From Bacteroidota bacterium (GTDB taxonomy: Bacteria; Bacteroidota; Bacteroidia; UKL13-3), in assembly GCA_027488905.1 (NCBI GenBank), contig JAIYAT010000010.1, positions 147,061 through 211,060 of the forward strand: a stretch of DNA of 64,000 nt, read 5' to 3'. How positions within the stretch are numbered: position 1 is the first letter of the stretch; every line of letters starts with the position of its first letter. The translations under genes and the position numbers were made by a program. The notes beneath the pieces were generated by a model. It saw only the letters and a list, made by a program, of their open reading frames with translations, searched no databases and had not been told where the DNA came from. Below, in pieces: positions 4,565-21,241 of this stretch.

Positions 4565-5240
4565 TGAATTCTTCTCTGGTTTTCATATCTAAGAACTTTC
4601 CAGAGTAATCCGAAGTTACGGTGCTGCTAGTTACATCTTGCACCCCACGCATGGCCACGCACATGTGATCTGCCTCAATAATAACGGCAACATCATCTGT
4701 TCCTAGAGCCTCTTTTAGCATGTTCGCAATTTGCACTGTCATGCGCTCTTGCACTTGCGGACGTTGTGCAAAGTACCTAACAATGCGGTTTAGTTTAGAC
4801 AATCCTACAACCTTACCATTTGGAATGTATGATACGTGAGCTTTACCGATAATTGGCACAAAATGATGTTCGCAAACACTATGAAAGGAGATGTTTTTTT
4901 CTACCAACATGTTTTTATATTGGTATCTATTGTCGAATAGTTTGGCAATAGGAAGGTTTTTTGGATCAAGCCCTTTAAACATTTCTGTTACATACATTTT
5001 GGCAACACGGTGAGGCGTTCCACTTAAACTATCATCGTTTAAGTCGAGACCAAGAATGAGCATAATCTCTTTAAAATGTTTTTCAATGAGCTCAATTTTC
5101 AACTCATCATCTAATGCAAAGGCATCTTCGCGAAGAGGTGTTTCCATTGAAAAACCTGCATGACTTTCGCCCATCTCTTCATGGGTCATATGCTGATTTT
5201 TAATTTCCGTTGTATTCAACGAAGTTTCTTTCTGTTTCAT
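4539..5240 (-). CDS. folE: GTP cyclohydrolase I
   Basis: This 233-residue enzyme converts GTP to 7,8-dihydroneopterin triphosphate, the entry to folate, pterin and queuosine synthesis. The zinc ligands are visible as Cys123 and His126 in SVCEHHFVP and Cys194 in DHMCVAMRGV; GKVVGLSKLNRIV and RPQVQERMT are also family signatures. The N-terminal ~40 residues are variable. The start shown overlaps the upstream pterin synthase gene by 41 nt; a second ATG at 5189 (MTHEEMG) would begin just after that gene's stop and is equally plausible. The gene is co-directional with the PTPS-type gene, so dihydroneopterin triphosphate is probably passed straight to it. Confidence 0.95.
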   Translation of the reverse strand: MKQKETSLNTTEIKNQHMTHEEMGESHAGFSMETPLREDAFALDDELKIELIEKHFKEIMLILGLDLNDDSLSGTPHRVAKMYVTEMFKGLDPKNLPIAKLFDNRYQYKNMLVEKNISFHSVCEHHFVPIIGKAHVSYIPNGKVVGLSKLNRIVRYFAQRPQVQERMTVQIANMLKEALGTDDVAVIIEADHMCVAMRGVQDVTSSTVTSDYSGKFLDMKTREEFIKMIALQK

Positions 5241-5610
5241 AAAGAATTACTTTAAGTTTAAGGTGTGTTGGAATTTTAGAACGTAATTTATTCCATATTA
5301 CCACTGCAATGTTTTCTGCTGTAGGGTTGAGGTTTTTGAACTCATCACAATCGAGATTGAGATTTTTATGATCAAAGGCATCCTCTACTTCTTGCTTTAT
5401 CCAAGTGCTTAGTTGTTTCATGTCGATAAGATAACCACTGATTGGATCAACTTCACCAATAACAGTTACAATCAAATCATAATTATGTCCATGATAATTT
5501 TTGTTATTACAGTTGCCAAAAAAGGCAAAATTTTCTTCATCCGTCCAAAGAGGAACATGTAATCTGTGTGCGGCATTAAAGTGAGCTTTTCTTGAAACTG
5601 CAATTTCCAT
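5200..5610 (-). CDS. 6-pyruvoyl-tetrahydropterin synthase / QueD family enzyme
   Basis: This 136-residue T-fold enzyme acts on 7,8-dihydroneopterin triphosphate. Zinc ligands are His15 (FNAAHRLH) and His40/His42 (YHGHNY), and the catalytic Cys is Cys34. The Cys-to-HGH spacing is CNNKNYHGH, that is C-x5-HGH. That is the spacing of the animal-type 6-pyruvoyltetrahydropterin synthase, whereas E. coli QueD has C-x3-HGH (family knowledge). The product could therefore be 6-pyruvoyltetrahydropterin or 6-carboxytetrahydropterin; no other queuosine gene is in the window to decide. It overlaps the downstream folE and has its own -7 box only 7 nt upstream. Confidence 0.85.
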   Translation of the reverse strand: MEIAVSRKAHFNAAHRLHVPLWTDEENFAFFGNCNNKNYHGHNYDLIVTVIGEVDPISGYLIDMKQLSTWIKQEVEDAFDHKNLNLDCDEFKNLNPTAENIAVVIWNKLRSKIPTHLKLKVILYETERNFVEYNGN

Positions 5611-5617
5611 AATTATA

Positions 5618-5625
5618 CAAAGGTA
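5618..5625 (-). promoter_or_regulatory. -7 box of the pterin operon
   Basis: Minus strand TACCTTTG matches TAnnTTTG. It ends 7 nt before the ATG at 5610, which predicts an almost leaderless mRNA. Confidence 0.5.
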
Positions 5626-5882
5626 ATAGGATTGAACGCGGCATGCAGTTTTAATTTTCCCTACAAGCTTTGTTTAATGTTATAAGTTAAGAGTTGTACA
5701 AAATGTTTTTTTAGGGTTCAAAAATGTCCTTTTAGCAACTAAAAATAGATTGTAAATGTCTGTTTATTATCACAAAATATGACATTCTAACAGGCGTTAG
5801 GCATATTTAAAAAATTTATCAGTTGAAAATCAACATTTTATGATTTGTTTAACGAAAATTTATAATTGTTAAACAAAATCGC

Positions 5883-5914
5883 TTGCATCTCTCATTATTA
5901 TCCTCATATCTTTG
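5883..5914 (+). promoter_or_regulatory. Promoter of the ECF sigma factor gene
   Basis: A TTG at 5883-5885 and TATCTTTG at 5907-5914 are separated by 21 nt, matching the Bacteroidota sigma-ABfr pattern (TTTG/TTG, 19-21 nt, TAnnTTTG). This decides the start of the sigma gene: an in-frame TTG at 5912 lies inside the box, so translation must begin at ATG 5945. The rest of the 334-nt gap 5611-5944 is AT-rich with no gene seen. Confidence 0.7.
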
Positions 5915-5944
5915 TTTAACAAATCGAAAGAAAACCTAAACAAC

Positions 5945-6487
5945 ATGACTGCAATAGAATTCAAAAGAATGGTTGAAAGAGAAGCAAAGCCTTTAAGACA
6001 ATACGCTTATCAATTAACAAGAAATGTAGAAGACACCAATGACCTTGTTCAAGAAACAATGTTAAAAGCTTTTACATATCAAGATAAATTTGAAAGTGGT
6101 ACAAACTTAAAAGGATGGTTGTACACAATCATGAAGAACACATTTATTAATAACTATCGCAGGATGGTTAAGCGTAATACTTTTATCGATCAAACTGATA
6201 ATGATTTTTATTTAGATAGTGTTGCACCACTTGTAAAAAATGATGGGGAGCAAAAGTTTGTTCGAACCGACATTGAATCTGCAATAAGTAAATTACCTAT
6301 GAGCTTAAGTAAACCATTTACTATGAATGTAAAGGGCTTTAAGTATCATGAGATTGCGGAAATTCTTAGAATACCAATTGGAACTGTGAAGACGAGGATA
6401 TTTGTAGCCAGAAGACAACTTAGGAATAGTCTTTCTATGTATGGGAAAATGTATGGATACAGTAATTCAGAAATGGAAGCAGCCTAA
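5945..6487 (+). CDS. RNA polymerase ECF-type sigma factor
   Basis: This 180-residue sigma-70 family protein has region 2 at about residues 15-75 (LRQYAYQLTRNVEDTNDLVQ, LKGWLYTIMKNTFINNYRR) and region 4 near residues 115-170 (GFKYHEIAEILRIPIGTVKTRIF). Such proteins direct RNA polymerase to a specific regulon. There is no adjacent anti-sigma factor gene. In Bacteroidota, such anti-sigma-less ECF factors are often regulated at transcription, which fits the good upstream promoter. A strong terminator follows 19 nt after the stop, so the gene is a single-gene unit. Confidence 0.9.
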   Translation: MTAIEFKRMVEREAKPLRQYAYQLTRNVEDTNDLVQETMLKAFTYQDKFESGTNLKGWLYTIMKNTFINNYRRMVKRNTFIDQTDNDFYLDSVAPLVKNDGEQKFVRTDIESAISKLPMSLSKPFTMNVKGFKYHEIAEILRIPIGTVKTRIFVARRQLRNSLSMYGKMYGYSNSEMEAA

Positions 6488-9206: not shown

Positions 9207-12200
9207 ATGACAAATTATTACTTATCAAAACTATTATCTTTAGATTTTAGTATTCGAAGAAAATTTGGATCAGCATTGATGGGTTCATTTTTATTGTTTG
9301 TAGCAGTTTTTGCTACTTTCAAAACAAATGCCCAATGTTATACACCTCCAAATTATTGTACCAGCATTGGTGCAACAAATGTTGCCAACTACCAAATGGG
9401 TATTCAGCAAGTTACACTTGGGACCTCCACCTTACCAACTCAAATCAATAATTTAACTGCCAGCGGGACTGGTGCTCCCATCTATTTTAATTATACTAAT
9501 TTAATTGTGCGTGCACTTGCCTCCGACACAATAAATTATAGCATTAGAGTGGGAGCAGGTAATAGTACTACCTTCAGAATTTATATAGATTATAACAATG
9601 ATGGTACATTTGCTACAACAGCCCCAGAGTTAGTTTTAACTTCACCTCAAACAAATGCAAACCTATTTGTTAATGGTTCATTTATCTTGCCTTCAACCTT
9701 GGCTGCTGGAGCCTATAGAATTAGAATTGCTAGCGATGGTTTAAATCAAATTGCTTCTCCATGTGGACCTATTTTTTACTCAGCAGAGTATGAGGATTAT
9801 ACTTTATTAGTGCCTTCTTCTACTGCTGATTTAATCAGTGGAACCATCACTCAACCTGCTTCTCCTTTTGTAGGTAATAATACAGTGGCATTTAATTTCA
9901 CTAATCTTTCAACAGTTACAATTACCAGCGTAGACATATATTATCAATTAAATAATAATACGCCTGTTTCTCAATCTTTGTCAAGTTTATCTATTGCTCC
10001 TGGAGCTTCTTATACAGCAACATTTACTACCCAAGTGAGTATACCAGCTGTTGGAACTTACTTATTAAGAACTTGGACAGATAATCCCAATTTTGCAGGT
10101 AATAACACACCAGGAAATGATACCATTTGTAGAAGTTTAGCTACTTATTGTTCAGGACCTTTAGCAGGAACTTATACCATTAACCCCGCCGGTTCTGGTG
10201 CAACAAATTTTAGAACTTTTGGTGCTGCAGACTCTGCTATTACTTCATGTGGTGTTTCTGCTCCTGTAGTATTTAATGTAAGCCCTGGTACTTACAATGA
10301 GCAAGTAACTTTCTTTGCCGTTCCAGGTGCAAGCGCAACCAACAATGTAGTCTTTAATTGTGCTGGTAGTACCATGGAATTTAATTGTACTGCCGCAAAT
10401 CCTGCACTCATTCGTTTTCAAGGTGCTAAACACATAACTTTTGATAGTTTAACTGTTCGCTCTACAAGTAATACTTTTGGTTGGGGTTTGCATTTCTTAT
10501 CAAATGCAGATTCGAATACTTTCAAAAACGGAAGAATAGAAATTACAAATGTTACTTCTAGTACATCTAACAACTCGGCAGGTATTGTTTTTTCAAGTAG
10601 TTTAACATCTGTCTTAACTTCCGGAAATAATGGTGCTGGAAACCTTTTTCAAAATAATGTAATTAAAGGTAGCACAGCTAGTTTTGGTTTGTATTACGGT
10701 ATTGTTGGGTTTCCTATGAGCTCTTCTGCAACTTATTCGGGAAATCAATTCATAAATAATAGAATAGAAGATTTTTTCCAATTTGGTATTTATTGGCAAA
10801 ATGGAAATAGAACGGTTTTTAGAGGAAACGTTTTAACAAGGGCCACAAAAGTTCAACAAACAACAGTATATGGTTTCTACCTTTCTTCTCAGTCTAGGTT
10901 CGAAACCTTTGATAGAAACGAAATTACTAATATTTTTAATGGTTCTCCAACCTATACAGGTACCTTCTTTGGATGGTATATGATTAACTATTCTGGAGCC
11001 AATAGCACAACAGAAAGTAATTTGTTTACCAATAACTTGCTTCATAAAATTAATGGAAATGGACCTCAATATGGTTTTTACTTATTGACGAGTTTCAATA
11101 ATCGTTTTTACAACAATACCTTGTTGTTTGACAATGTTAGCAATACTTCTACAACTGCTCAAACATGGGGATTGTATTTCACGGGTGGAACCTCCACTTT
11201 CTCAGCTATAGATTTTAGAAACAACTTAATTTCAATAACACGCGGTGGTACTGGTCAGAAATTGGCACTAAATGTTACAGGAAGCTGGGCCACAGGCGCA
11301 ACTGTAAATAGAAATGCTTATTTTGGAAATACTGCCAATTACAACTTAGCAAATTATTTGGGCGTAAATTATTTAGGCTTGACCCAATGGAGAGCTGCAC
11401 TAACGGTTGCAGACCAACAAAGTATTGAGGTTTCACCTAACTTTACAAATCCTGCTTCAAATGTTTATTCACCTCGAGATGGTGCATACAATGGTAGTGG
11501 AGATACAACCTTACTTGCAACTGTACCAGTTGACTTTACAGGTGCCACTAGAACTAACCCAATGGATATTGGCGCTTGGGAAGCTTCCCCTATTTCAGTA
11601 GATGGAGCGATGGCAGAAATTGTAGTTCCAGCAACGCCATATTTGGCTGGATTACAAAATATAAATGTTAAGATTAGAAATGCTGGTATTAATACCATTG
11701 ACAGTGCCATGATTAATTGGTCTGTTAACGGAGTACCCCAAACGCCAGTTATGTACACTGGTCCACTTGGAGGCGGAGCAGTTTCCGGCAACATCTTATT
11801 GGGTAGTGTTAACTTAACTGTCAACACCTTGTTCAATATCACTGCAACTTTAGGAAATGTTAATGGTAGTGCTGACCCAAATCCAGATAATAATTCTTTA
11901 TCTAGCGTTACAGCGCCTGCTTCTGCTGGCACTTTAACGGTTAATGCAGCAGGAACTGGTGCGGGAGTTTTTCAAAATTTCACCAATGTGGCAACATTAT
12001 TATCTGTAGGAGGAGTTTCTGGTCCAGTTACTATTAATGTTGTAACAGGCTCTGGCCCTTACACAGAACAATTGTTTTTTAGAACTATTCCAGGTGTAAG
12101 CGCTGTCAATAATATCGTTGTAAATGGCAATGGCAATACAATCCAATTCAATAATATCGACCCTTCAAACATTGGTATCATTAACCTAATTGGAGCAGAT

Positions 12201-15200
12201 TTTATGACATTTAATAACCTAACTGTTCGTTCATTAAATGCATCTTATGGCATTGGATACATCTTTACTGCTGGTGCAGATTTTAATAAAATTTTGAACA
12301 ATACCATAGACATTGGTTCGGTAACAGGAAGTTCATTGTCAGCTGGTATTGCATTTACTGGCAGTTTGGGTAATCCAACTACAACCGGTATCAATGGTAG
12401 CAGTAACTTAATTGAGAACAACCAAATCATCGGAAATTCTACTGGAGGTCCTTATTACGCAATTGCTTACCAGCCACAAGCCGTTAATAATGGCGTAAAC
12501 ACATTCAATGTGTTTAAAAATAATATTTTAAGAGATTTTACAGTTTTCGGATTTTATGTAGCATATAGCGCCGGAACTACTTATTCTGGAAATATTTTAT
12601 CTCGTCCAACAAAAACATCTCCAACTACTTTTTATGGATTTTATATGGTAAATAGTGTTAACCAAGATACTATTGAAAATAATGTGATTAAACAACCATA
12701 TCAAGCTTTACAAACTACAACTGGTACTTTCTATGGCTATTATTTGATTGCTACCAATACACAAACTACTAGACCAATTATCATTCGCAACAACCAAATG
12801 TATGATATTAGGTTCAATGGTACTATTTATGGGTTCTACCAATTAAGTGCTAGTAACATAAGGTTGTTCAACAATATTTTTGTGGTTGATCATCCTACTT
12901 CAACTTCTACTAGTGTTACTTATTTATATTATAATTCTGGAACTCCTACAACTACTACCATTAGAAACAATATCTGGTTTTTAAATAGAGGAGGTTCTGG
13001 TGCTAAGTATATTTACTATTTAGCCACAACGGGTGCAGGTTATGTTATCAATAACAATGTAGTACACTTAAAACAAACCGGTACCAATAATTTTGTGGGC
13101 TTCCATGGAGGAAACATCACCACATTCACTGCTTGGAGGGCTGTAAATGCTAGTGCATACGATCAAAACAGCGTGAGTGCTGATCCATTATTCAGATTGT
13201 CGGTTGGGCCTGAATATTACATGCCAGGCAGCGATACTGTTAATAACATCGGTTTTGTTACAACAGATGTTCCTAGAGATGTAACAGGTGCCTTAAGAAA
13301 TGCTATTACGCCAGATCCAGGTGCATATGAATTTGGAATATATGGTGATGATGCAGGTTTAACTCGTATAACTTCACCTATTAATCCAATTTCTTTAGGT
13401 ACTCAAAATGTAAATGTACTCTTGAAGAACTTTGGTACAAATACTTTAACAACATCCTTTATTAATTGGACGGTTAATGATTCCGTTCAATCGCCAAATC
13501 TTTGGAGTGGACTTTTAGCAAAGGATGATACCGTTACCACTTCTGCTGGTACCTTTAATTTTTTAAATCCAGGTGTTTACAGAATTAAAGCTTGGACTTC
13601 GATGCCAAATTCTACATCGGATAGTTTCCCAGTAAATGACACGGCTAGTATTACAGTTTGTACAGCACTTTCTGGTAATTTATTTGTAAATGCTGCTATT
13701 CCTACAAATGATTCTACCTTCAACTCAATTACAGCCGTAACGCAATTGCTTCAAACTTGCGGTGTTAATGGTCCAGTTGTAGTAAATATAGCTCCAGGTA
13801 CTTACAATGGTTCTTTAACATTTACTGGCAAAATACCTGGGTCTTCCCCAATCAATACGATTACCTACAGAGGTGCTGATTCATCTTCTACCAGAATAGT
13901 GCACACGGCCTCTGGTCAAAGAGCTACTATATTAGTGGATGGTGCCAAATATTTAGTATTTAGAAACCTAACAATTGAATCAAATGCGCTTTCAGGTGGC
14001 GGTTATGGTGTTCTATTTACAAACAGTGCTGATAGTAACAGTGTAATTCGTTCTACTGTAAGAGTAGCGCAATTAACAACAGGTTTTACCACATTTGCTG
14101 GTATAGCCTCTAGTGGTAACGCTTTGAACCTAAACTTTGCTGGTAATAATGGTAATGTTTTGCTGGTAGACAGTTGCACAATCATTGGTGGTTACTATGG
14201 TGTGAACTTCTTTAATAACACCACAACAAAATCAGTTGGTAATGTGATTAGAAACTCGAACTTTATTAATCCTTTCTATTATGGAGTTTATGCCTATGCA
14301 CAAAATGGCATTGTAACCACAAGAAATACTATTACTGGTTCTGGAAACGGAATAAATACTTTTGCTTGTCCTCTTTATTATGCTTTGTGTGATAATGGTA
14401 TCATTGTTACTAAAAATCAAACAAGCAACCAACTAGGTGGATACGGTATTTTCTTAACTCAAAATCTTGGAACTTCAACAAATAGAAATGTAATTGCTAA
14501 TAACATGTTCCAGTTAGGTGCAATCACTTATACTACTTATGGAATTTATGATGCAGGAAATGCATTCACAGACATTGCTCATAATTCTGTTCATAATACT
14601 TCTGGAGATGCTAGTTATGTTAGTTGTGCCCTCTATTTAAATTACAATAACATTTCAACCTCAAACAACCTAAGATTAGTTAATAATGTGTTTGCTTCTC
14701 CTAATGGCGCTATGGCTTCTTGGATTCCGTCAACAGGTTCTTTATCTTTTAGTTCTATTCTTGCGAATAACAATGTTTATTTTTCAACTTCTACTTATCC
14801 ATTTAGAATTGTAAACACAATTTATCCAGCGTTGCCTAATTACAAAGTCGCAATGACAGCATTTGTAGCTGGCTTAGATTCTGCTAGTATTTGGACAAAT
14901 CCAAGTTTCTTATCAGCAACAAATTTACGTTCTATTAATCCTCAATTAGATTCAATTGGTATCCCAATTGCAACAGTGGTTGATGATATAGACGGAGTTA
15001 CAAGAAGCACAATTGCTCCAGATGCGGGTGTTAATGAATTCGCTAAGCCAAATGACGATGCTGGTGTAATTGCAATTTTGCAGCCTTCTCAACCAACCCT
15101 TTCTGGTTTAACCAATGTTCGAGTGGTTGTAAGAAACTTTGGAATAAGCACAATCACTTCTCTTAATGTGCATTACAACGGGGGTGCTGGTCCAGTTACC

Positions 15201-17828
15201 AGAACTATTACCAGTACTATTTTGCCAGGCGCAACCGATACTGTTACCTTTGACAGTACAAGTGGCCCAGGTGGAACCAACCAAAGGTTTAACTTTGTTG
15301 GCGGATTAATCACATTTAAGGCATATACTTCACAGCCTAATACTGTTGTTGATCCTCAAAACCTTAATGATACTGCTTTTTTAAGCATCTGCGGTGCTTT
15401 GTCTGGAACCTACACTATCAATCCAAGCGGTTCAGGTGCCAATAACTTCTTAACTATTGGTGATGCGATTAATAGATTAACTTGTGGCGGTGTTGCTGGA
15501 AATGTAATCTTTAATATTGCCTCTGGCACTTATACAGGGCAGTTTGATATGTCACCAATTGCAGGTACCAATGATACTTCACGAATTTTATTCCGTTCAC
15601 AAACTGGTAACCCTGCAAATGTTATTATCACTTCTGCTACTGCCACGCCAGCAGATAACTACACTATTCGTTTAAGAGGTGTTTCTTTTGCTACTTTCCT
15701 TAACTTAACCATTAGAAATACAAATGTTACAAATGGCAGGGTTTTTTCAATTAACAAATGGACACCAACCAATACAAATACGAATAATTTAACTATTAGA
15801 AACTGTATTTTGGAGGGAATTACCACTACAAGTACTAGTGATTTATTGGCCATTGTTTATGGACCTAATGGAGATAATGCTACCAATATCAAAATTGTTA
15901 ATAACCAAATACGCCAAGGTTCTTATGGCGTTTGGATGGGTGGACAAAATATCATTAACCAGTTTTCTCCAGGCTTGGAGATTGACTCTAATAACTTTGT
16001 TCAGGCTTATTGGGCTTCTATTAACTTAACTAGCCGCGCTGAAACCAAAATTAGAAACAATTTCTTCGATGGAAATACCTCTCAAGGATATTATGGTATT
16101 TTCCTAGCAAGTACTTCTGGTAATACCGAAATTAGTAGAAATAACTTTCAGTTGCCTTTCTCTACATATGCTATCTACATGGCAACTAATGGATACTATG
16201 GCGAAACTGGGGTTGGTCAAATTAAGAACAATGTGATTAATATGCTTTCAACAGGCACGCAGTATGGAATAGCATTGTTTAATACTTCGAATTTGTATAC
16301 CATGAATAATACGGTTCGTTTGAATTCTTCTGCAACCTCATATGCTTATTATTATTCTGGTCACTCTACCACACCAACTGTTCCGCAAGTTACAGCCTCT
16401 AATAATGTTAGACTTTTCAATAACATTTTGTGGTCAAATACTGGATATGCAGCTTACTATGCAAATTTCCAAGCAATAACCGGTACCCCTCAATCGGATA
16501 ATAATTTGTACTACACAGGTGGAACCAACTTGATTTACTCAAATGGTTTGAATTATACACCTGCAGCTTTCTTAACATTTAGAAATGCAATTTATGCTGG
16601 GTCAGATAGAAGGTCATTAACTTCAAACATTACCTTTACTTCTAGTAGCAACTTATCTCCTTTGGTAACTGCATCTAATGCTTGGGCATCTAATGGTCGC
16701 GGTGTGCAATCTACTTTTGTAACCAATGATTTCAGCGGTGCAAACAGAAGTACAATGGTAGCAACAGGTGCAACAGATATTGGTGCATTTGAATTTACAC
16801 CAACTTCAACTCCTCCTGCTGTAACCTTTACTGGTTCGATTGGTGGCGGAAACACACAACATATGTTGCTTTACGGTGATACCATTGGTAAATTAGTATG
16901 GGGCTTTTCAGGTACTTTACCTTCAGCAATTTCAGGAACTTATCATTCAGGCGCTTTAATCAGTAATCCTACAAATACTGGAACAATTACTGGCGCACAT
17001 TACATGGATGTGTTCTGGAGAATTAATGCAACAGGTGGGTCTTTCTTTAACTACGATTTAGATCTTATCTATGATCCTAATATGTTAGGAACTGTGCCTT
17101 TTGCATCTGATTTAAAAATGGCTAAGAAACCAACTGGTTCTGGATATTGGGTACATTACGGTTCTACCGCTACAACTGTTGATACTGTTGCAATGGATTT
17201 TGGTGTAACTGGCTTATCAGATTTCTCTGATTTTACTGGTACAACTGATATCTCTCCACTTCCAGTTGCGCTTTCAAACTTTGAAGCGGTTAAGGAAGGC
17301 AGCACCAATGCTGGTTTGTATTGGAACACTGCATCTGAAATAAGAAGCAGTCATTTTATCATAGAAAGAGCCGTAGAATATGGCAAGTTTGAAGCTATTG
17401 ATAAAGTAAAAGCTGCTGGAAACAGCAATAAAATGATTAGCTACCAATTTAAAGATGCAAATGTTGCAGAGGTCTTAAATACTAATGTAGTTTTCTACCG
17501 CTTAAAAATGGTTGATTTGGATGGAACTTTCGAGTACAGCCAAGTTAGAACGGTTCGTTTTGGAGATGATACTGAAACAGATATTACTGTTTTCCCTGTT
17601 CCGTTTAACAATGAAATTTCAATTTTCATCGCAGCTAATGAGGCTGGAAATGGAAATATTGAAGTTGTAAATGTAATGGGTTCTGTTTGTCACAAATCAT
17701 CTTTTACCATTAAAGCTGATGGAGATAAAGTTAGTTTAACTGAACTTTCTAATCTTCCTGCTGGTGTTTATATGATCCGTGTTCAAATGAACAACGAATG
17801 GATAGTTAGAAAAGTAATTAAGCAGTAA
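9207..17828 (+). CDS. Giant T9SS-exported modular beta-helix protein
   Basis: This 2873-residue protein has a signal peptide preceded by a 24-residue N-terminal extension (core MGSFLLFVAVFA, cleavage near TNAQ). Next comes a GEVED-like domain to about residue 210 (YIDYNNDGTF, YRIRIASDG, EYEDYTL). Four long modules then start at about residues 321, 908, 1490 and 2067, each opening with a G-T/N-x-x-x-N-P/A-x-G strand. Each module has a parallel beta-helix rich in Asn/Thr/Ser (N-x-x-x-N-N), then a D-x-x-G-x-x-R...GAxEF block and, after the first three, a CARDB-like segment. After about residue 2640 come an FnIII-like segment (LPVALSNFEAVKEG) and a T9SS type A sorting tail (VFPVPFNNEISI...LPAGVYMIRV). 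It is probably a cell-surface or released adhesin or glycan-binding protein. No enzyme motif was seen. Confidence 0.9.
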   Translation: MTNYYLSKLLSLDFSIRRKFGSALMGSFLLFVAVFATFKTNAQCYTPPNYCTSIGATNVANYQMGIQQVTLGTSTLPTQINNLTASGTGAPIYFNYTNLIVRALASDTINYSIRVGAGNSTTFRIYIDYNNDGTFATTAPELVLTSPQTNANLFVNGSFILPSTLAAGAYRIRIASDGLNQIASPCGPIFYSAEYEDYTLLVPSSTADLISGTITQPASPFVGNNTVAFNFTNLSTVTITSVDIYYQLNNNTPVSQSLSSLSIAPGASYTATFTTQVSIPAVGTYLLRTWTDNPNFAGNNTPGNDTICRSLATYCSGPLAGTYTINPAGSGATNFRTFGAADSAITSCGVSAPVVFNVSPGTYNEQVTFFAVPGASATNNVVFNCAGSTMEFNCTAANPALIRFQGAKHITFDSLTVRSTSNTFGWGLHFLSNADSNTFKNGRIEITNVTSSTSNNSAGIVFSSSLTSVLTSGNNGAGNLFQNNVIKGSTASFGLYYGIVGFPMSSSATYSGNQFINNRIEDFFQFGIYWQNGNRTVFRGNVLTRATKVQQTTVYGFYLSSQSRFETFDRNEITNIFNGSPTYTGTFFGWYMINYSGANSTTESNLFTNNLLHKINGNGPQYGFYLLTSFNNRFYNNTLLFDNVSNTSTTAQTWGLYFTGGTSTFSAIDFRNNLISITRGGTGQKLALNVTGSWATGATVNRNAYFGNTANYNLANYLGVNYLGLTQWRAALTVADQQSIEVSPNFTNPASNVYSPRDGAYNGSGDTTLLATVPVDFTGATRTNPMDIGAWEASPISVDGAMAEIVVPATPYLAGLQNINVKIRNAGINTIDSAMINWSVNGVPQTPVMYTGPLGGGAVSGNILLGSVNLTVNTLFNITATLGNVNGSADPNPDNNSLSSVTAPASAGTLTVNAAGTGAGVFQNFTNVATLLSVGGVSGPVTINVVTGSGPYTEQLFFRTIPGVSAVNNIVVNGNGNTIQFNNIDPSNIGIINLIGADFMTFNNLTVRSLNASYGIGYIFTAGADFNKILNNTIDIGSVTGSSLSAGIAFTGSLGNPTTTGINGSSNLIENNQIIGNSTGGPYYAIAYQPQAVNNGVNTFNVFKNNILRDFTVFGFYVAYSAGTTYSGNILSRPTKTSPTTFYGFYMVNSVNQDTIENNVIKQPYQALQTTTGTFYGYYLIATNTQTTRPIIIRNNQMYDIRFNGTIYGFYQLSASNIRLFNNIFVVDHPTSTSTSVTYLYYNSGTPTTTTIRNNIWFLNRGGSGAKYIYYLATTGAGYVINNNVVHLKQTGTNNFVGFHGGNITTFTAWRAVNASAYDQNSVSADPLFRLSVGPEYYMPGSDTVNNIGFVTTDVPRDVTGALRNAITPDPGAYEFGIYGDDAGLTRITSPINPISLGTQNVNVLLKNFGTNTLTTSFINWTVNDSVQSPNLWSGLLAKDDTVTTSAGTFNFLNPGVYRIKAWTSMPNSTSDSFPVNDTASITVCTALSGNLFVNAAIPTNDSTFNSITAVTQLLQTCGVNGPVVVNIAPGTYNGSLTFTGKIPGSSPINTITYRGADSSSTRIVHTASGQRATILVDGAKYLVFRNLTIESNALSGGGYGVLFTNSADSNSVIRSTVRVAQLTTGFTTFAGIASSGNALNLNFAGNNGNVLLVDSCTIIGGYYGVNFFNNTTTKSVGNVIRNSNFINPFYYGVYAYAQNGIVTTRNTITGSGNGINTFACPLYYALCDNGIIVTKNQTSNQLGGYGIFLTQNLGTSTNRNVIANNMFQLGAITYTTYGIYDAGNAFTDIAHNSVHNTSGDASYVSCALYLNYNNISTSNNLRLVNNVFASPNGAMASWIPSTGSLSFSSILANNNVYFSTSTYPFRIVNTIYPALPNYKVAMTAFVAGLDSASIWTNPSFLSATNLRSINPQLDSIGIPIATVVDDIDGVTRSTIAPDAGVNEFAKPNDDAGVIAILQPSQPTLSGLTNVRVVVRNFGISTITSLNVHYNGGAGPVTRTITSTILPGATDTVTFDSTSGPGGTNQRFNFVGGLITFKAYTSQPNTVVDPQNLNDTAFLSICGALSGTYTINPSGSGANNFLTIGDAINRLTCGGVAGNVIFNIASGTYTGQFDMSPIAGTNDTSRILFRSQTGNPANVIITSATATPADNYTIRLRGVSFATFLNLTIRNTNVTNGRVFSINKWTPTNTNTNNLTIRNCILEGITTTSTSDLLAIVYGPNGDNATNIKIVNNQIRQGSYGVWMGGQNIINQFSPGLEIDSNNFVQAYWASINLTSRAETKIRNNFFDGNTSQGYYGIFLASTSGNTEISRNNFQLPFSTYAIYMATNGYYGETGVGQIKNNVINMLSTGTQYGIALFNTSNLYTMNNTVRLNSSATSYAYYYSGHSTTPTVPQVTASNNVRLFNNILWSNTGYAAYYANFQAITGTPQSDNNLYYTGGTNLIYSNGLNYTPAAFLTFRNAIYAGSDRRSLTSNITFTSSSNLSPLVTASNAWASNGRGVQSTFVTNDFSGANRSTMVATGATDIGAFEFTPTSTPPAVTFTGSIGGGNTQHMLLYGDTIGKLVWGFSGTLPSAISGTYHSGALISNPTNTGTITGAHYMDVFWRINATGGSFFNYDLDLIYDPNMLGTVPFASDLKMAKKPTGSGYWVHYGSTATTVDTVAMDFGVTGLSDFSDFTGTTDISPLPVALSNFEAVKEGSTNAGLYWNTASEIRSSHFIIERAVEYGKFEAIDKVKAAGNSNKMISYQFKDANVAEVLNTNVVFYRLKMVDLDGTFEYSQVRTVRFGDDTETDITVFPVPFNNEISIFIAANEAGNGNIEVVNVMGSVCHKSSFTIKADGDKVSLTELSNLPAGVYMIRVQMNNEWIVRKVIKQ
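10167..16800 (+). repeat. Four-fold internal module array in the giant protein
   Basis: Module openings at about 10167, 11928, 13674 and 15405 give periods of 587, 582 and 577 residues. DNA identity between modules looks low, so this is old duplication followed by divergence. Confidence 0.75.
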
Positions 17829-18157: not shown

Positions 18158-18198
18158 AAAAAAAGCCCCTTGATGACAAATGCACCAAGGGGCTTTTT
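18158..18198 (-). terminator. Terminator of the sugar-transferase operon, probably bidirectional
   Basis: AAAAGCCCCTTG (18161-18172) pairs with CAAGGGGCTTTT (18086+100 to 18097+100, i.e. 18186-18197). T-runs on both strands allow function in both directions. Confidence 0.9.
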
Positions 18199-18211: not shown

Positions 18212-19402
18212 TTAAACGTTTTCTTTTTGAAACAAAGCTGGTATAGTTCTCAAAATAATCTTTATATCATTCAGCAAGGAATAGTTTTTAGCATATTCAT
18301 TATCAAGTTCCATGCGTTCTTCTTCACTCATTTGACCTCCTTTTCCACGTTTGGTAACTTGCCATAAACCCGTTATTCCTGCGGGTGCTAGAAACCTCAA
18401 GGCAAATTGGTCTGTGGTGAGTTTTTCTGCTTCATAAATTGGTAATGGTCTATTTCCAACAATACTCATGTCCCCTTTTAACACATTAAATAACTGAGGC
18501 AATTCATCTATGCTGGTATTGCGCATGATTTTTCCAAAACGGGTTATTCTTGGGTCATTCTCAATTTTAATGAATTTAGAACCTTCTTTCACACGCTTAT
18601 AATCGGCAAATACTTTTTCGCAAATTCTCTCTCCATCCATGTAAAGGCTGTTTTTACAGGATATGTTTGCTGTTTTACATTCCTCACATACAAAATTTTT
18701 GTAATCTTCAAGTGATTTTGCATCAGAAGTATTACTGTATTGATTCAAATGCTTTAGGTTCTTTAACATTGCATCTGCTCCTTGTCTCATCGAGCGAAAC
18801 TTGTAGAAGTCAAAAGGAGTATACCCAGTTCCAACTCGCTTTGCCGCATAAAATACTGGACCTTTCGATTCAAGCATAATAATGATTGCAAAAATGATAA
18901 AGAAAGGCAGTAAAAACAGCAAGGCTAAACTTGCAAATACAATATCAAAAATTCTCTTCGCTAAAGGGATGCTATATTTAGGAAAATTATTAGAAGCAGT
19001 TACAATGCTTTTATGATAACGAGGAGGGTTTTCAATTAAGAAAATAGCTCTTGTTAAGAACTCATCTTGTTTTACTGGCCTTTCGAAAATTTCGGCAAAC
19101 TGCTCCATCAAGGCAATGTTCTTGTTAGCATCTGTAATCCTATCAACTATTAAGACGAAAGGTACATTAGCTATTTTGGGAACGTTTTTACAGTTTTTTC
19201 TTAATGTAATACCGTTTGCACCCAATAAATCAGAATAAGTTACAACCAATTTTACGGTATCGTTTACATTGGTCCATTGAATGAATTGAAAGATATTGTC
19301 AAAGTGAAATATTTCAAACTCCTCCCTAAAAGAATGTGAAAATTCTACAATTGCATCAGGACTAGAAGCTATGAAAGCAATTCTATTTTTAATTGATTCC
19401 AT
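18212..19402 (-). CDS. Sugar-1-phosphate transferase fused to a degenerate receiver domain
   Basis: This 396-residue protein has a C-terminal bacterial sugar transferase domain (polyprenyl-phosphate phosphoglycosyl transferase, PglC/WcaJ type). It starts at about residue 147: KRIFDIVFASLALL membrane segment, FYKFRSMR, the Asp-Glu catalytic dyad in TSIDELPQL (299-300), and GDMSIVGNRPLP. Such enzymes load the first sugar phosphate onto undecaprenyl phosphate at the inner membrane. Residues 1-125 look like a receiver fold that has lost its phosphorylation chemistry: the acceptor position reads LVVTYSDLL, with Tyr56 where Asp is expected, and the conserved Lys-Pro is Arg108-Pro. An insert carries Cys 239, 242, 249 and 261. 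It lies 2 nt after a true receiver gene. Confidence 0.88.
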   Translation of the reverse strand: MESIKNRIAFIASSPDAIVEFSHSFREEFEIFHFDNIFQFIQWTNVNDTVKLVVTYSDLLGANGITLRKNCKNVPKIANVPFVLIVDRITDANKNIALMEQFAEIFERPVKQDEFLTRAIFLIENPPRYHKSIVTASNNFPKYSIPLAKRIFDIVFASLALLFLLPFFIIFAIIIMLESKGPVFYAAKRVGTGYTPFDFYKFRSMRQGADAMLKNLKHLNQYSNTSDAKSLEDYKNFVCEECKTANISCKNSLYMDGERICEKVFADYKRVKEGSKFIKIENDPRITRFGKIMRNTSIDELPQLFNVLKGDMSIVGNRPLPIYEAEKLTTDQFALRFLAPAGITGLWQVTKRGKGGQMSEEERMELDNEYAKNYSLLNDIKIILRTIPALFQKENV

Positions 19403-19404
19403 CC

Positions 19405-19785
19405 CTATAATTTTTTTAATCTTCTAAATATATTATCAATTCTTGCCTCAAGCTCTTCTGGATTAAATGGCTTAATCAAATAATCATCTGCACCTGCCTT
19501 TAAACATTTTATCTTATCACTTGAACCTTCATTTCCTGATAACATAATAAGAGGTACATCTTTGAAAAATCCACTGGCACGAATTTGTCTAATAAACTCT
19601 AGTCCATTAATTTCAGGCATATTGACATCCGCAATAATAACATCTGGAATTACCCCTTGTTGCATCCACTCTAATGCTTCTTTACCGTTTTGTTTTGCAA
19701 CCACGGTATATGTTTTGTTAAAATAAAAGTCAAGAATTTTTAAGATACTTAATTCATCATCTAAGGCTAAAAGTGTCTTTTTCAT
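19405..19785 (-). CDS. CheY-like single-domain response regulator
   Basis: This 126-residue stand-alone receiver domain has the acidic pair Asp9-Asp10, phosphoacceptor Asp53 (DVIIADVNMPEING), Ser83 in MLSGNEG and Lys105 in LIKPF, so the phosphorylation site is intact. There is no output domain, so it probably acts by protein contact. It sits between an NtrC-type activator (22 nt gap) and the pseudo-receiver sugar transferase (2 nt gap). Its likely partner is one of those proteins. No histidine kinase gene is in the window. Confidence 0.92.
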   Translation of the reverse strand: MKKTLLALDDELSILKILDFYFNKTYTVVAKQNGKEALEWMQQGVIPDVIIADVNMPEINGLEFIRQIRASGFFKDVPLIMLSGNEGSSDKIKCLKAGADDYLIKPFNPEELEARIDNIFRRLKKL

Positions 19786-19807: not shown

Positions 19808-21181
19808 TTATTTTTTTAATAATTTTTGGAAACTATCTGTCTTAACAATTCTGTAAATGGTAGACTTCCCGATATTCAATTTTTTAGCAACTATGATTAC
19901 ATTATCATCATATTTTTCTAAGTAGAATTTGATGATAAGATTTGTATAATCATCAAATGTCATTTCTTGCGACATGATATTATTAATCGATTTTTCATTG
20001 TTATAGGTAATATCATCTGCAGCAATAACCTGTTGTTCACAAAGTACACAAGCTAATTCAATGATTGCTTTTAACTCCCTTATATTACCTGGAAAACTAT
20101 ATTCCAACAATTTTTTTTGAGCCTCGCTTGATAAAGTTATCTTACCGGTCTTGTTTTCTTTAATGTACTCATCTATAAAATACTTGGCCAAATGCACCAC
20201 ATCATTGCCACGCTCTCTTAACGGTGGTAAGTGTATCGGTAACCCCAATAACCTATAGTACAAGTCTTCTCTAAATCTGCCTTCTTGAACCTCTAATGCT
20301 AAGTTTTTATGCGTGGCCACTATAATTCTTACATCAATTGGTATAGCATTATTACTGCCAATTCTTGTCACCTCACGTTCTTGCAAAACCCTTAATAATT
20401 TAGCTTGTAGGTTCAAATCAAGTTCCCCAATTTCATCTAAAAAAATGGTTCCTTTAATTGCTTGTTCAAATTTCCCTATTCGTCTAGCGTCAGCACCCGT
20501 AAAGGCGCCTTTCTCATGGCCAAATAATTCACTTTCTATTAAGTCTTTCGGAATTGCAGCAACGTTTACGGCCACAAACGAGGATTTTTTTCTATCACTA
20601 TGATAATGTATGGCTTTTGCAACCAACTCTTTTCCTGTGCCAGTTTCTCCAGTTATTGAAACGGTTATTTTGCTATTTGCCGACTTTTCAATCAACGAAA
20701 AGGTTTTCTTTATGGCATCACTATTGCCAATAATGGTTTTACTAAAATCATACTTTTTGCCTAGGTCTTCTTTTAACTCAACAATTTGAGTTTTTAAATT
20801 TGTATTGATTAGCGCATTGCGAGCCGAGTTCAACAAACGGTTTTTAGTGTCTTCGTTTTTTATCAAATAATCAAAAACGCCCAATTTTAAAAGTTCTACA
20901 GCCGTAGAAACATCCTCTTGCCCAGAAATTACTATTAACTGAATTTGATCGTCTACCTCCTTGATTTTCTTAATCAATTCAGCCCCATTCATGCCCGGTA
21001 AAGAATAATCAATGGTTATTAAATCGGGCTTCAAATGCAAATTTGATAAACAATCCTTAGCATTCTCAAATGCTTGTACTTCGTAATCGGGATTTAATTG
21101 AATGGTATAGGTTAGGAAATTCCTATACCACGTATCATCTTCAACTACAAAAATTTTATAATTATTTTTTTCGTTTGCCAT
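19808..21181 (-). CDS. Sigma-54-dependent response regulator, NtrC family
   Basis: This 457-residue activator has a receiver domain (residues 8-125, phosphoacceptor Asp58 in LITIDYSLPG), and an AAA+ domain with Walker A GETGTGKE (178-185), the sigma-54-contacting GAFTGA loop (225-230), and DEIGELDLNLQAKLLRVLQ. A Fis-like helix-turn-helix (NVIIVAKKLNIGKSTIYRIV) is at the C-terminus. It would activate sigma-54 promoters on phosphorylation. The receiver Lys108 is followed by Asn rather than the usual Pro. I used ATG 21181; the frame extends to a TTG at 21196. It heads the operon with the CheY-like protein and the sugar transferase, so exopolysaccharide control is a reasonable inference. Confidence 0.93.
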   Translation of the reverse strand: MANEKNNYKIFVVEDDTWYRNFLTYTIQLNPDYEVQAFENAKDCLSNLHLKPDLITIDYSLPGMNGAELIKKIKEVDDQIQLIVISGQEDVSTAVELLKLGVFDYLIKNEDTKNRLLNSARNALINTNLKTQIVELKEDLGKKYDFSKTIIGNSDAIKKTFSLIEKSANSKITVSITGETGTGKELVAKAIHYHSDRKKSSFVAVNVAAIPKDLIESELFGHEKGAFTGADARRIGKFEQAIKGTIFLDEIGELDLNLQAKLLRVLQEREVTRIGSNNAIPIDVRIIVATHKNLALEVQEGRFREDLYYRLLGLPIHLPPLRERGNDVVHLAKYFIDEYIKENKTGKITLSSEAQKKLLEYSFPGNIRELKAIIELACVLCEQQVIAADDITYNNEKSINNIMSQEMTFDDYTNLIIKFYLEKYDDNVIIVAKKLNIGKSTIYRIVKTDSFQKLLKK

Positions 21182-21241
21182 AGGGTCTACTGACAAAACA
21201 AATATGCAAGGAAATTTCCAAATTTGGGAATTATTTTATTA

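Follow-up and report, generated by a model that had tools for sequence, protein, structure and literature searches.

PleD of Caulobacter uses a live and a degenerate receiver jointly in the control of its enzyme, with all domains in one chain and a diguanylate cyclase as the output. In Myxococcus xanthus the phosphorylated form of EpsW, a single-domain response regulator, is described as stimulating the phosphoglycosyl transferase (PGT) EpsZ post-translationally by direct interaction (PMC12802240); the grounds given are proximity labelling, activity in a heterologous setting and a model of a 2:2 complex. With reference to O'Toole, Imperiali and Allen (2021), the same paper also mentions that receiver domains may occur in small monoPGTs, and it presents the post-translational control of Wzx/Wzy-type pathways as incompletely understood (PMC12802240).

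Control of the first transferase matters because undecaprenyl phosphate serves both exopolysaccharides and peptidoglycan. Here we analyse a stretch of 64,000 nucleotides from a Bacteroidota bacterium (hereafter, the window), in which a PGT fused to a dead receiver is encoded next to an apparently live one. Receiver control of a PGT was already known; what is new here is the paired dead receiver and its linkage across the phylum. A first-pass annotation, made from the sequence alone, knew of no described system of this form. Receiver-PGT activation is in fact described in Myxococcus, but in the part of the source considered here it comes without a pseudo-receiver (PMC12802240), and searches of open-licence literature, judged by title and abstract opening, turned up no paper on a PGT that has a pseudo-receiver and a linked receiver as its partner.

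The locus and its gene order

The locus comprises the following features, with the evidence for each in brackets.

18212..19402, minus strand: fusion of a pseudo-receiver with a monotopic PGT, 396 aa (ORF, Pfam, AlphaFold2, structure superposition)
19013..19402, minus strand: pseudo-receiver domain, fusion residues 1-130 (AlphaFold2 fold, VIA Z 17.7, residue states)
18230..18958, minus strand: PGT catalytic domain, fusion residues 149-391 (Pfam PF02397 9.6e-60, VIA Z 21, invariant columns)
18620..18688, minus strand: four-cysteine segment C239-x2-C242-x6-C249-x11-C261, an insert of the PGT domain
19405..19785, minus strand: stand-alone CheY-like receiver, 126 aa, with a complete phosphorylation site (Pfam PF00072 1.4e-27, residues, group of linked receivers)
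19808..21181, minus strand: sigma-54 activator of the NtrC type, including a receiver domain (ORF, Pfam, conserved start)
18160..18198, minus strand: hairpin resembling an intrinsic terminator, directly 3' of the fusion gene (16-pair stem and T run; consensus match only)

On the minus strand the NtrC-type activator is followed by the receiver after 22 nt, and the receiver by the fusion after 2 nt; the three reading frames and both gaps are as the first-pass annotation had given them. The NtrC-type ORF had been listed from a TTG at 21196, and orthologue comparison places the conserved start at the ATG at 21181. Elsewhere in the window, 9207-17828 encodes a repetitive, secreted-looking protein of 2873 residues, the C-terminus of which appears to resemble a type IX secretion sorting domain.

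The fused N-terminal domain has a receiver fold

Pfam finds no receiver in fusion residues 1-130, its only match in the protein being Bac_transf at 149-391, and the receiver alignment drawn by eye therefore needed an independent test. The AlphaFold2 model, built on a 56-sequence alignment, gives the order b1-a1-b2-a2-b3-a3-b4-a4-b5-a5 over residues 6-124, and for every 10-residue block between 11 and 120 the pLDDT is 84-95 (edge blocks 80 and 81); the mean pLDDT of the whole fusion model is 82.2 and its pTM 0.54. Structures were compared by VIA superposition on solved structures, with Foldseek alongside, and the N-terminal domain superposes on the solved receiver 3gl9 with Z 17.7 and an rmsd of 2.1 Å over 120 residues. 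The first-pass alignment of residues 1-125 with a receiver is borne out by this fold and superposition, and predicting the structure of residues 1-130, the check set beforehand, did return a receiver fold. The residue states read at the outset also hold: the acceptor position is Tyr56, the Lys position is Arg108 and the acidic pair is absent. Residues 1-130 are thus a receiver fold without acceptor Asp, acidic pair or Lys, that is, a pseudo-receiver.

An HMM built from 97 stand-alone receivers matches the window domain weakly (E 1.3e-3) and reaches E<1e-3 for 60 of the 84 homologous fused domains described below. Annotation overlooks the domain because only 13 of 56 fusions are matched by the receiver model of Pfam.

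The remainder of the fusion is a monotopic PGT

PF02397 covers fusion residues 149-391 with 201.6 bits (cut-off 27, 9.6e-60), and the catalytic part superposes on WbaP (8t53, Z 21.1) and on PglC (8e37, Z 21.0). Three residues are invariant in 56 of 56 homologues, namely D299 and E300 of the motif TSIDELPQ, which we take to be the catalytic residues, and P166, presumably the helix-kink residue of the PGT. A long hydrophobic helix at 147-179 is the only such helix in the fusion model, hydrophobicity being judged by eye. By every test made (family score, Asp-Glu motif, Pro-bearing membrane helix) the fusion is a monotopic PGT, in agreement with the earlier description of this part as a membrane sugar-1-phosphate transferase. 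It is not a large monoPGT of the WbaP, WcaJ or EpsZ type: the N-terminus is a receiver and not a four-TM bundle plus DUF, and the fusion scores under the cut-off of the WbaP, WcaJ and EpsZ models.

A long PGT insert with at least 4 Cys is present in 52 of the 84 fusions; others have in its place a long insert with at most 1 Cys, or a short one. The four-cysteine segment is possibly a metal or redox site. A tie between this insert and C94 of the linked receiver, which gave p of about 0.01 in a first count, was dropped, the cross-tabulation being loose and the sequences related.

The stand-alone receiver and the NtrC-type activator

The protein encoded at 19405-19785 matches PF00072 (1.4e-27) and has the acidic pair DD, D53, S83, Y102 and K105, and on these residues it is a receiver with a complete phosphorylation site. 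In the upstream gene product Pfam recognises a receiver and a sigma-54 AAA+ domain, and GAFTGA can be read in the sequence; matches to an HTH are weak and under the cut-off. The sigma-54 family itself has one match in the genome. From these features we class the upstream gene as that of an NtrC-type sigma-54 activator.

In the window's family all 19 of the 19 loci have an NtrC-type gene at position -2. The one further occurrence of its cluster is next to L131, which is an additional locus in a genome of the family, and because it is confined in this way we regard NtrC as a local add-on and not as core. The earlier proposal put activator, receiver and fusion in one control circuit; on this distribution the idea that the NtrC-type gene belongs to the core was dropped. 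Within the family, the activator of the same gene row probably adds transcription control.

A sigma-54-like site, GG-N10-GC, lies 5' of the NtrC gene in the window (21219-21206) and at the same place in L007. It was rejected as a promoter of that gene, since other orthologues have no GG-N10-GC there and other matches occur elsewhere; a genome-wide scan gave 24 sites for the sigma-54 pattern against 8 for the reversed pattern.

Linkage to stand-alone receivers across Bacteroidota

Full-length orthologues came from a tblastn-confirmed scan and a search of 60 relatives. The fusion occurs in 18 of the 37 genomes of the window's family covered by the latter search (G000-G036), and profile searches matched 45 of 395 phylum genomes and 59 of 395 class genomes, two samples that overlap. 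The window, 16 of the 18 from the scan, 47 phylum places, 25 new class genomes and nine places in relatives were taken, 98 loci in total, with the distant PGTs L022 and L023 left out. Collapsing two pairs at 95% identity reduced these to 96, composed of 84 fusions and 12 non-fused PGTs of the same family.

A stand-alone receiver, defined as under 200 aa and on the same strand, lies directly upstream of 82 of the 84 non-redundant Bacteroidota fusions. This count answers in the affirmative the check proposed with the first-pass annotation, a search for the fusion in other genomes and for its linkage to such receivers. Neither of the two outcomes named beforehand as refuting, a fold other than that of a receiver and fusions mostly lacking a receiver neighbour, was observed. 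The median gap between receiver and fusion at the 82 loci is 2 nt and the extremes are -74 and 240, the value of -74 belonging to L020, at a contig end, where the ORF call is too long. The fusions without a linked receiver are L089 and L131. Among the non-fused PGTs of the same family, 4 of 12 have a linked receiver. The control consisted of the 30 best-scoring large PGT loci (1.5 kb around the domain match) and 40 hand-picked small ones; a receiver-containing gene was found within 300 nt upstream in 1 of these 70 other phylum PGT loci, and it encodes a 566-residue protein. Fisher values for the linkage overstate certainty because the loci are related.

The fused N-termini were clustered by BLAST single linkage and then compared with receivers as profiles. 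One cluster holds 79 of the 84, including L131, and its profile matches receivers with a probability of 99.7, a cluster value that does not vouch for each member; two further N-termini match receivers at 90.1. Those of L095, L219 and L221 find no receiver support in the profile comparison and are also among the 13 that cannot be aligned to the receiver HMM.

At L089 (fusion at 4935-6017) a histidine kinase reading frame, recognised by eye, stands upstream in place of a linked receiver, and the fusion has no ATG, GTG or TTG start at the expected place. Beyond the linked receiver of three non-fused PGTs (L104, L107 and L114) lies, upstream, a gene for a receiver-domain protein of 684-720 aa, which is possibly the cognate sensor kinase. 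In the linked receiver of L102 (4528-4983) the second helix is followed by roughly 20 inserted residues, and W40, G44 and S71 are absent.

Which receiver keeps its phosphorylation site

Key positions could be read in 71 of the 84 fused domains, the N-termini of the other 13 not being alignable to the receiver HMM. A complete site (D, D, D, S, Y, K) is present in one of the 71, that of L131, and the acceptor residue varies freely among them. The local alignment starts past the acidic pair in 41 of the 71 and stops short of the Lys in 13, and the 15 fused domains with an acceptor Asp were therefore inspected individually. L125 and L209 keep acceptor Asp and Lys with the acidic pair missing, while in eleven others the Lys is absent from its position and an acidic pair is not clearly seen; the corresponding letters of L130 are CEE, and L089 is cut short of the first strand.

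The linked receivers have a complete site in 75 of 82 cases. The incomplete ones are L020 (truncated where its contig stops), L100, L113, L122, L126, L128 and L217. At L100 the fused domain (fusion at 5029-6201) keeps acidic pair, acceptor Asp and Ser, with only the Lys missing, and the linked receiver has Glu at the acceptor; judged by these residues the roles look mixed, and a swap of roles between the fused and the linked receiver is possible.

Loss is complementary across the set: the linked receivers are mostly complete, and the sole intact fused receiver belongs to L131, which like L089 has no linked receiver gene. L131 (4989-6122) is a second locus in genome G003, with a divergent NtrC-type gene alongside. 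When L131 served as query to look for other live fusions, 41 places in 37 of 296 genomes matched; the first 35 of these 41 are loci already in the set, among which the complete site occurs only in L131.

Phylogeny and shared residues of the paired receivers

A FastTree phylogeny of 120 columns comprised 58 fused domains, 85 linked receivers, including the four next to non-fused PGTs, and 69 background receivers drawn from six genomes; a smaller first tree had 31 of the latter. In the larger tree the background receivers are set apart from all others (support 0.868), and the 57 dead fused domains form one clade (support 1.0) with no linked or background receiver inside. The live fused domain of L131 falls outside this clade, nearest to the linked receivers, and looks from this placement as if a partner-type receiver had been fused in cis. 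The smaller tree sets the linked receivers plus L131 apart from the rest with support 0.711. The branching pattern thus gives three groups, with the dead clade joining between linked and background receivers, and long branches could help to group degenerate domains in such a tree.

W40 is found in 66 of the 81 linked and in 38 of the 57 dead receivers, but in about 1% of the 69 background receivers. Being common to the first two and rare in the third, it favours a common origin of linked and dead receivers; a first reading of W40 as a contact residue was given up, since the dead receivers have it too. Further columns distinguish linked from background receivers by frequency: next to W40 (0.81 vs 0.01) these are F64 (0.72 vs 0.06), S71 (0.80 vs 0.04), G72 (0.66 vs 0.03), C94 (0.74 vs 0.14), N108 (0.94 vs 0.14) and P109 (0.98 vs 0.19). 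G44 (0.88 vs 0.01) was set aside as a special residue, its column being a gap in 56 of the 69 background receivers, so that the contrast is partly one of length. The receiver group can be recognised by W40, G44, S71 and KPFNP. Together, tree and shared residues suggest that the linked and the dead receivers likely stem from a single duplication.

Gene context

Context was taken as the four genes downstream on the same strand and scored for four polysaccharide clusters, the labels of which rest on one or two representatives per cluster. At least one such gene follows in 44 of the 65 fusions outside the window's family and in 4 of the 19 inside. Outside the family the counts are 35 for GNVR/Wzc-like proteins, 26 for the outer-membrane efflux type, 18 for flippases and 18 for the Wzy_C type. 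In the window no polysaccharide-cluster genes stand directly behind the fusion; its genome holds four other PGT genes, and three Poly_export genes on other contigs. The earlier suggestion that the first step of polysaccharide synthesis is acted upon fits the gene context elsewhere, but the window itself offers no such neighbours behind the fusion.

Named records, all from a plasmid collection (the Bacteroides record carries trp genes), have the same arrangement. In Parabacteroides distasonis the order is receiver, sugar transferase, TolC family protein, hypothetical protein and O-antigen ligase family protein, and receiver and sugar transferase are adjacent in Bacteroides finegoldii and in a Flammeovirgaceae bacterium. 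The N-terminal domains from B. finegoldii and P. distasonis match those of L099 and L105, missed by the receiver HMM alone. A Hymenobacter yonginensis plasmid has a receiver and a non-fused transferase in the same order, and a Salinibacter plasmid a non-fused transferase without an adjacent receiver.

A proposed split switch on the transferase and its alternatives

We put forward that the transferase is under a single switch made of two halves, one being the stand-alone receiver and the other the N-terminal pseudo-receiver, a reading to which we assign a probability of roughly 0.55. A histidine kinase would phosphorylate the stand-alone receiver, and the phosphorylated form would dock on the pseudo-receiver, or on the pseudo-receiver together with the neighbouring catalytic domain. 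Docking would change the activity or the assembly of the PGT, and the transfer of sugar-1-phosphate to undecaprenyl phosphate, the first exopolysaccharide step, would thereby be set after translation. Because EpsW/EpsZ is the nearest precedent, it seems most likely that the linked receiver controls the PGT after translation, with the pseudo-receiver as a docking or relay module. That the effect would be activation rather than inhibition we infer from EpsW/EpsZ alone. In favour of the switch speak the receiver fold, the linkage at 82 of 84 fusions, the complementary loss of phosphorylation sites, the tree with W40, purifying selection on the pseudo-receiver and the polysaccharide genes nearby in other genomes. 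Weighing against it are the receivers linked to non-fused PGTs, L089, the seven linked receivers with an incomplete site, the mixed residues of L100 and the 13 fused N-termini that resist alignment.

Evidence on a partnership of the two receivers comes from their divergence. Over 81 pairs, receiver and pseudo-receiver distances correlate with the PGT controlled (partial r 0.63, 0 of 500 permutations), against 0.17 (3 of 500) for receiver and PGT distances with the pseudo-receiver controlled. Rank versions on core columns give 0.49 (0 of 300 permutations) against 0.18 (1 of 300) for the PGT; inside the window's family they are 0.71 and 0.28, and outside it 0.42 and 0.09. By these distances the linked receiver and the pseudo-receiver diverge together, and shared rates may contribute because both are receivers in one gene pair. 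A read-through surrogate, in which the L012 receiver was joined to its pseudo-receiver by a short artificial linker (alignment of 40 rows, chain without PGT), folded into two good domains (mean pLDDT 86.9) with no confident relative placement (pTM 0.50). The docking of a live receiver on the pseudo-receiver, as first proposed, thus draws only indirect support from co-divergence, and the surrogate, with its shallow alignment, gives no confident interface for it.

The alternative that survives best stays closer to EpsW: the phosphorylated receiver would bind the PGT catalytic domain, and the pseudo-receiver would be a dimerisation or scaffold domain in place of the cytoplasmic DUF of large monoPGTs. 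In the published EpsW/EpsZ model each EpsW touches both the DUF and the catalytic domain (PMC12802240). Furthermore, receivers of the same group stand beside 4 of the 12 non-fused PGTs, and a receiver is likewise kept in Hymenobacter; it seems, then, that a PGT lacking the pseudo-receiver can still be served by a receiver. Receiver divergence, however, tracks the pseudo-receiver and not the PGT. S71 also counts against this alternative, being present in 68 of 81 fusion-paired receivers but missing from L131 and from all four receivers next to non-fused PGTs, a pattern that would fit contact with the pseudo-receiver, three of the five sequences lacking it coming from one family. We therefore consider the EpsW-like arrangement unlikely, if a serious contender.

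Pseudo-receivers that bind other ligands or partners exist, and the present one might sense a small molecule or another protein, the linked receiver having another target or acting as a phosphate sink and being merely co-expressed. The 7 of 82 linked receivers without a complete site, and L089 without a linked receiver, would sit well with this. The near-constant adjacency (82 of 84) and the co-divergence of both receivers nevertheless make it distinctly improbable, as does L131, where a live, partner-like receiver fused to the PGT puts both in physical contact.

In the four of seven pairs where dS is computable, dN/dS of the pseudo-receiver is 0.034-0.094, values that are rough because dS is above 1 in these pairs and that indicate a domain under purifying selection. 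With this constraint, retention in 84 diverse fusions and conservation of residues rare in background receivers (F79, 0.81 vs 0.10; W40, about 0.69 vs 0.01), we find it very hard to credit that the domain is a decaying remnant without function, kept by fusion to a needed enzyme, even if it is less conserved in identity than the receiver in all 7 pairs and than the PGT part in 6 of the 7, and its acceptor varies freely in 71 sequences.

Returning to the two receivers as halves of one switch, a fuller history can be sketched, which we hold tentatively and at slightly less than even odds. Across Bacteroidota a receiver gene would have duplicated, the copy joined to the PGT losing its site and the other staying free and live. 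The pair would then be a split switch gating exopolysaccharide at the first committed step, with L131 as a case of the live partner in cis.

Comparison with known systems

If this reading is true, receiver control of PGTs would extend from myxobacteria to a wide range of Bacteroidota, the named gut species Bacteroides finegoldii and Parabacteroides distasonis having the same gene order, and the system would test how a dead receiver can act as a docking module.

For the activator, the comparison is with the PEP-CTERM response regulator of TIGR02915, which we take to be linked to exopolysaccharide genes. The NtrC-type protein of the window shares its receiver-AAA+-HTH layout but scores 365.9 bits against a cut-off of 502.6, a resemblance at the level of the NtrC class only. 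PleD (2v0n, 2wb4) is similar in pairing a live with a degenerate receiver, and its chain is among the best structural matches (Z 17.4), whereas at this locus the live and the dead receiver belong to different proteins and a PGT is the output.

The receiver fusions of small monoPGTs (O'Toole et al. 2021, as cited in PMC12802240) likewise join a receiver to a small catalytic domain. EpsW/EpsZ resembles the locus in that a stand-alone single-domain response regulator is encoded with an initiating monotopic PGT, there in a Wzx/Wzy-type exopolysaccharide pathway (PMC12802240). EpsZ, as described there, belongs to the large monoPGTs and has both a TMH bundle and a cytoplasmic DUF, whereas the window PGT is without both and has a dead receiver instead. 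Membership scores are correspondingly far under the thresholds: the receiver at 19405-19785 is not an EpsW by model NF041866 (68.9 bits, cut-off 200), and the EpsZ model gives 159.3 (cut-off 800). By analogy, the fusion would work like EpsW/EpsZ with a PleD-like use of the degenerate receiver.
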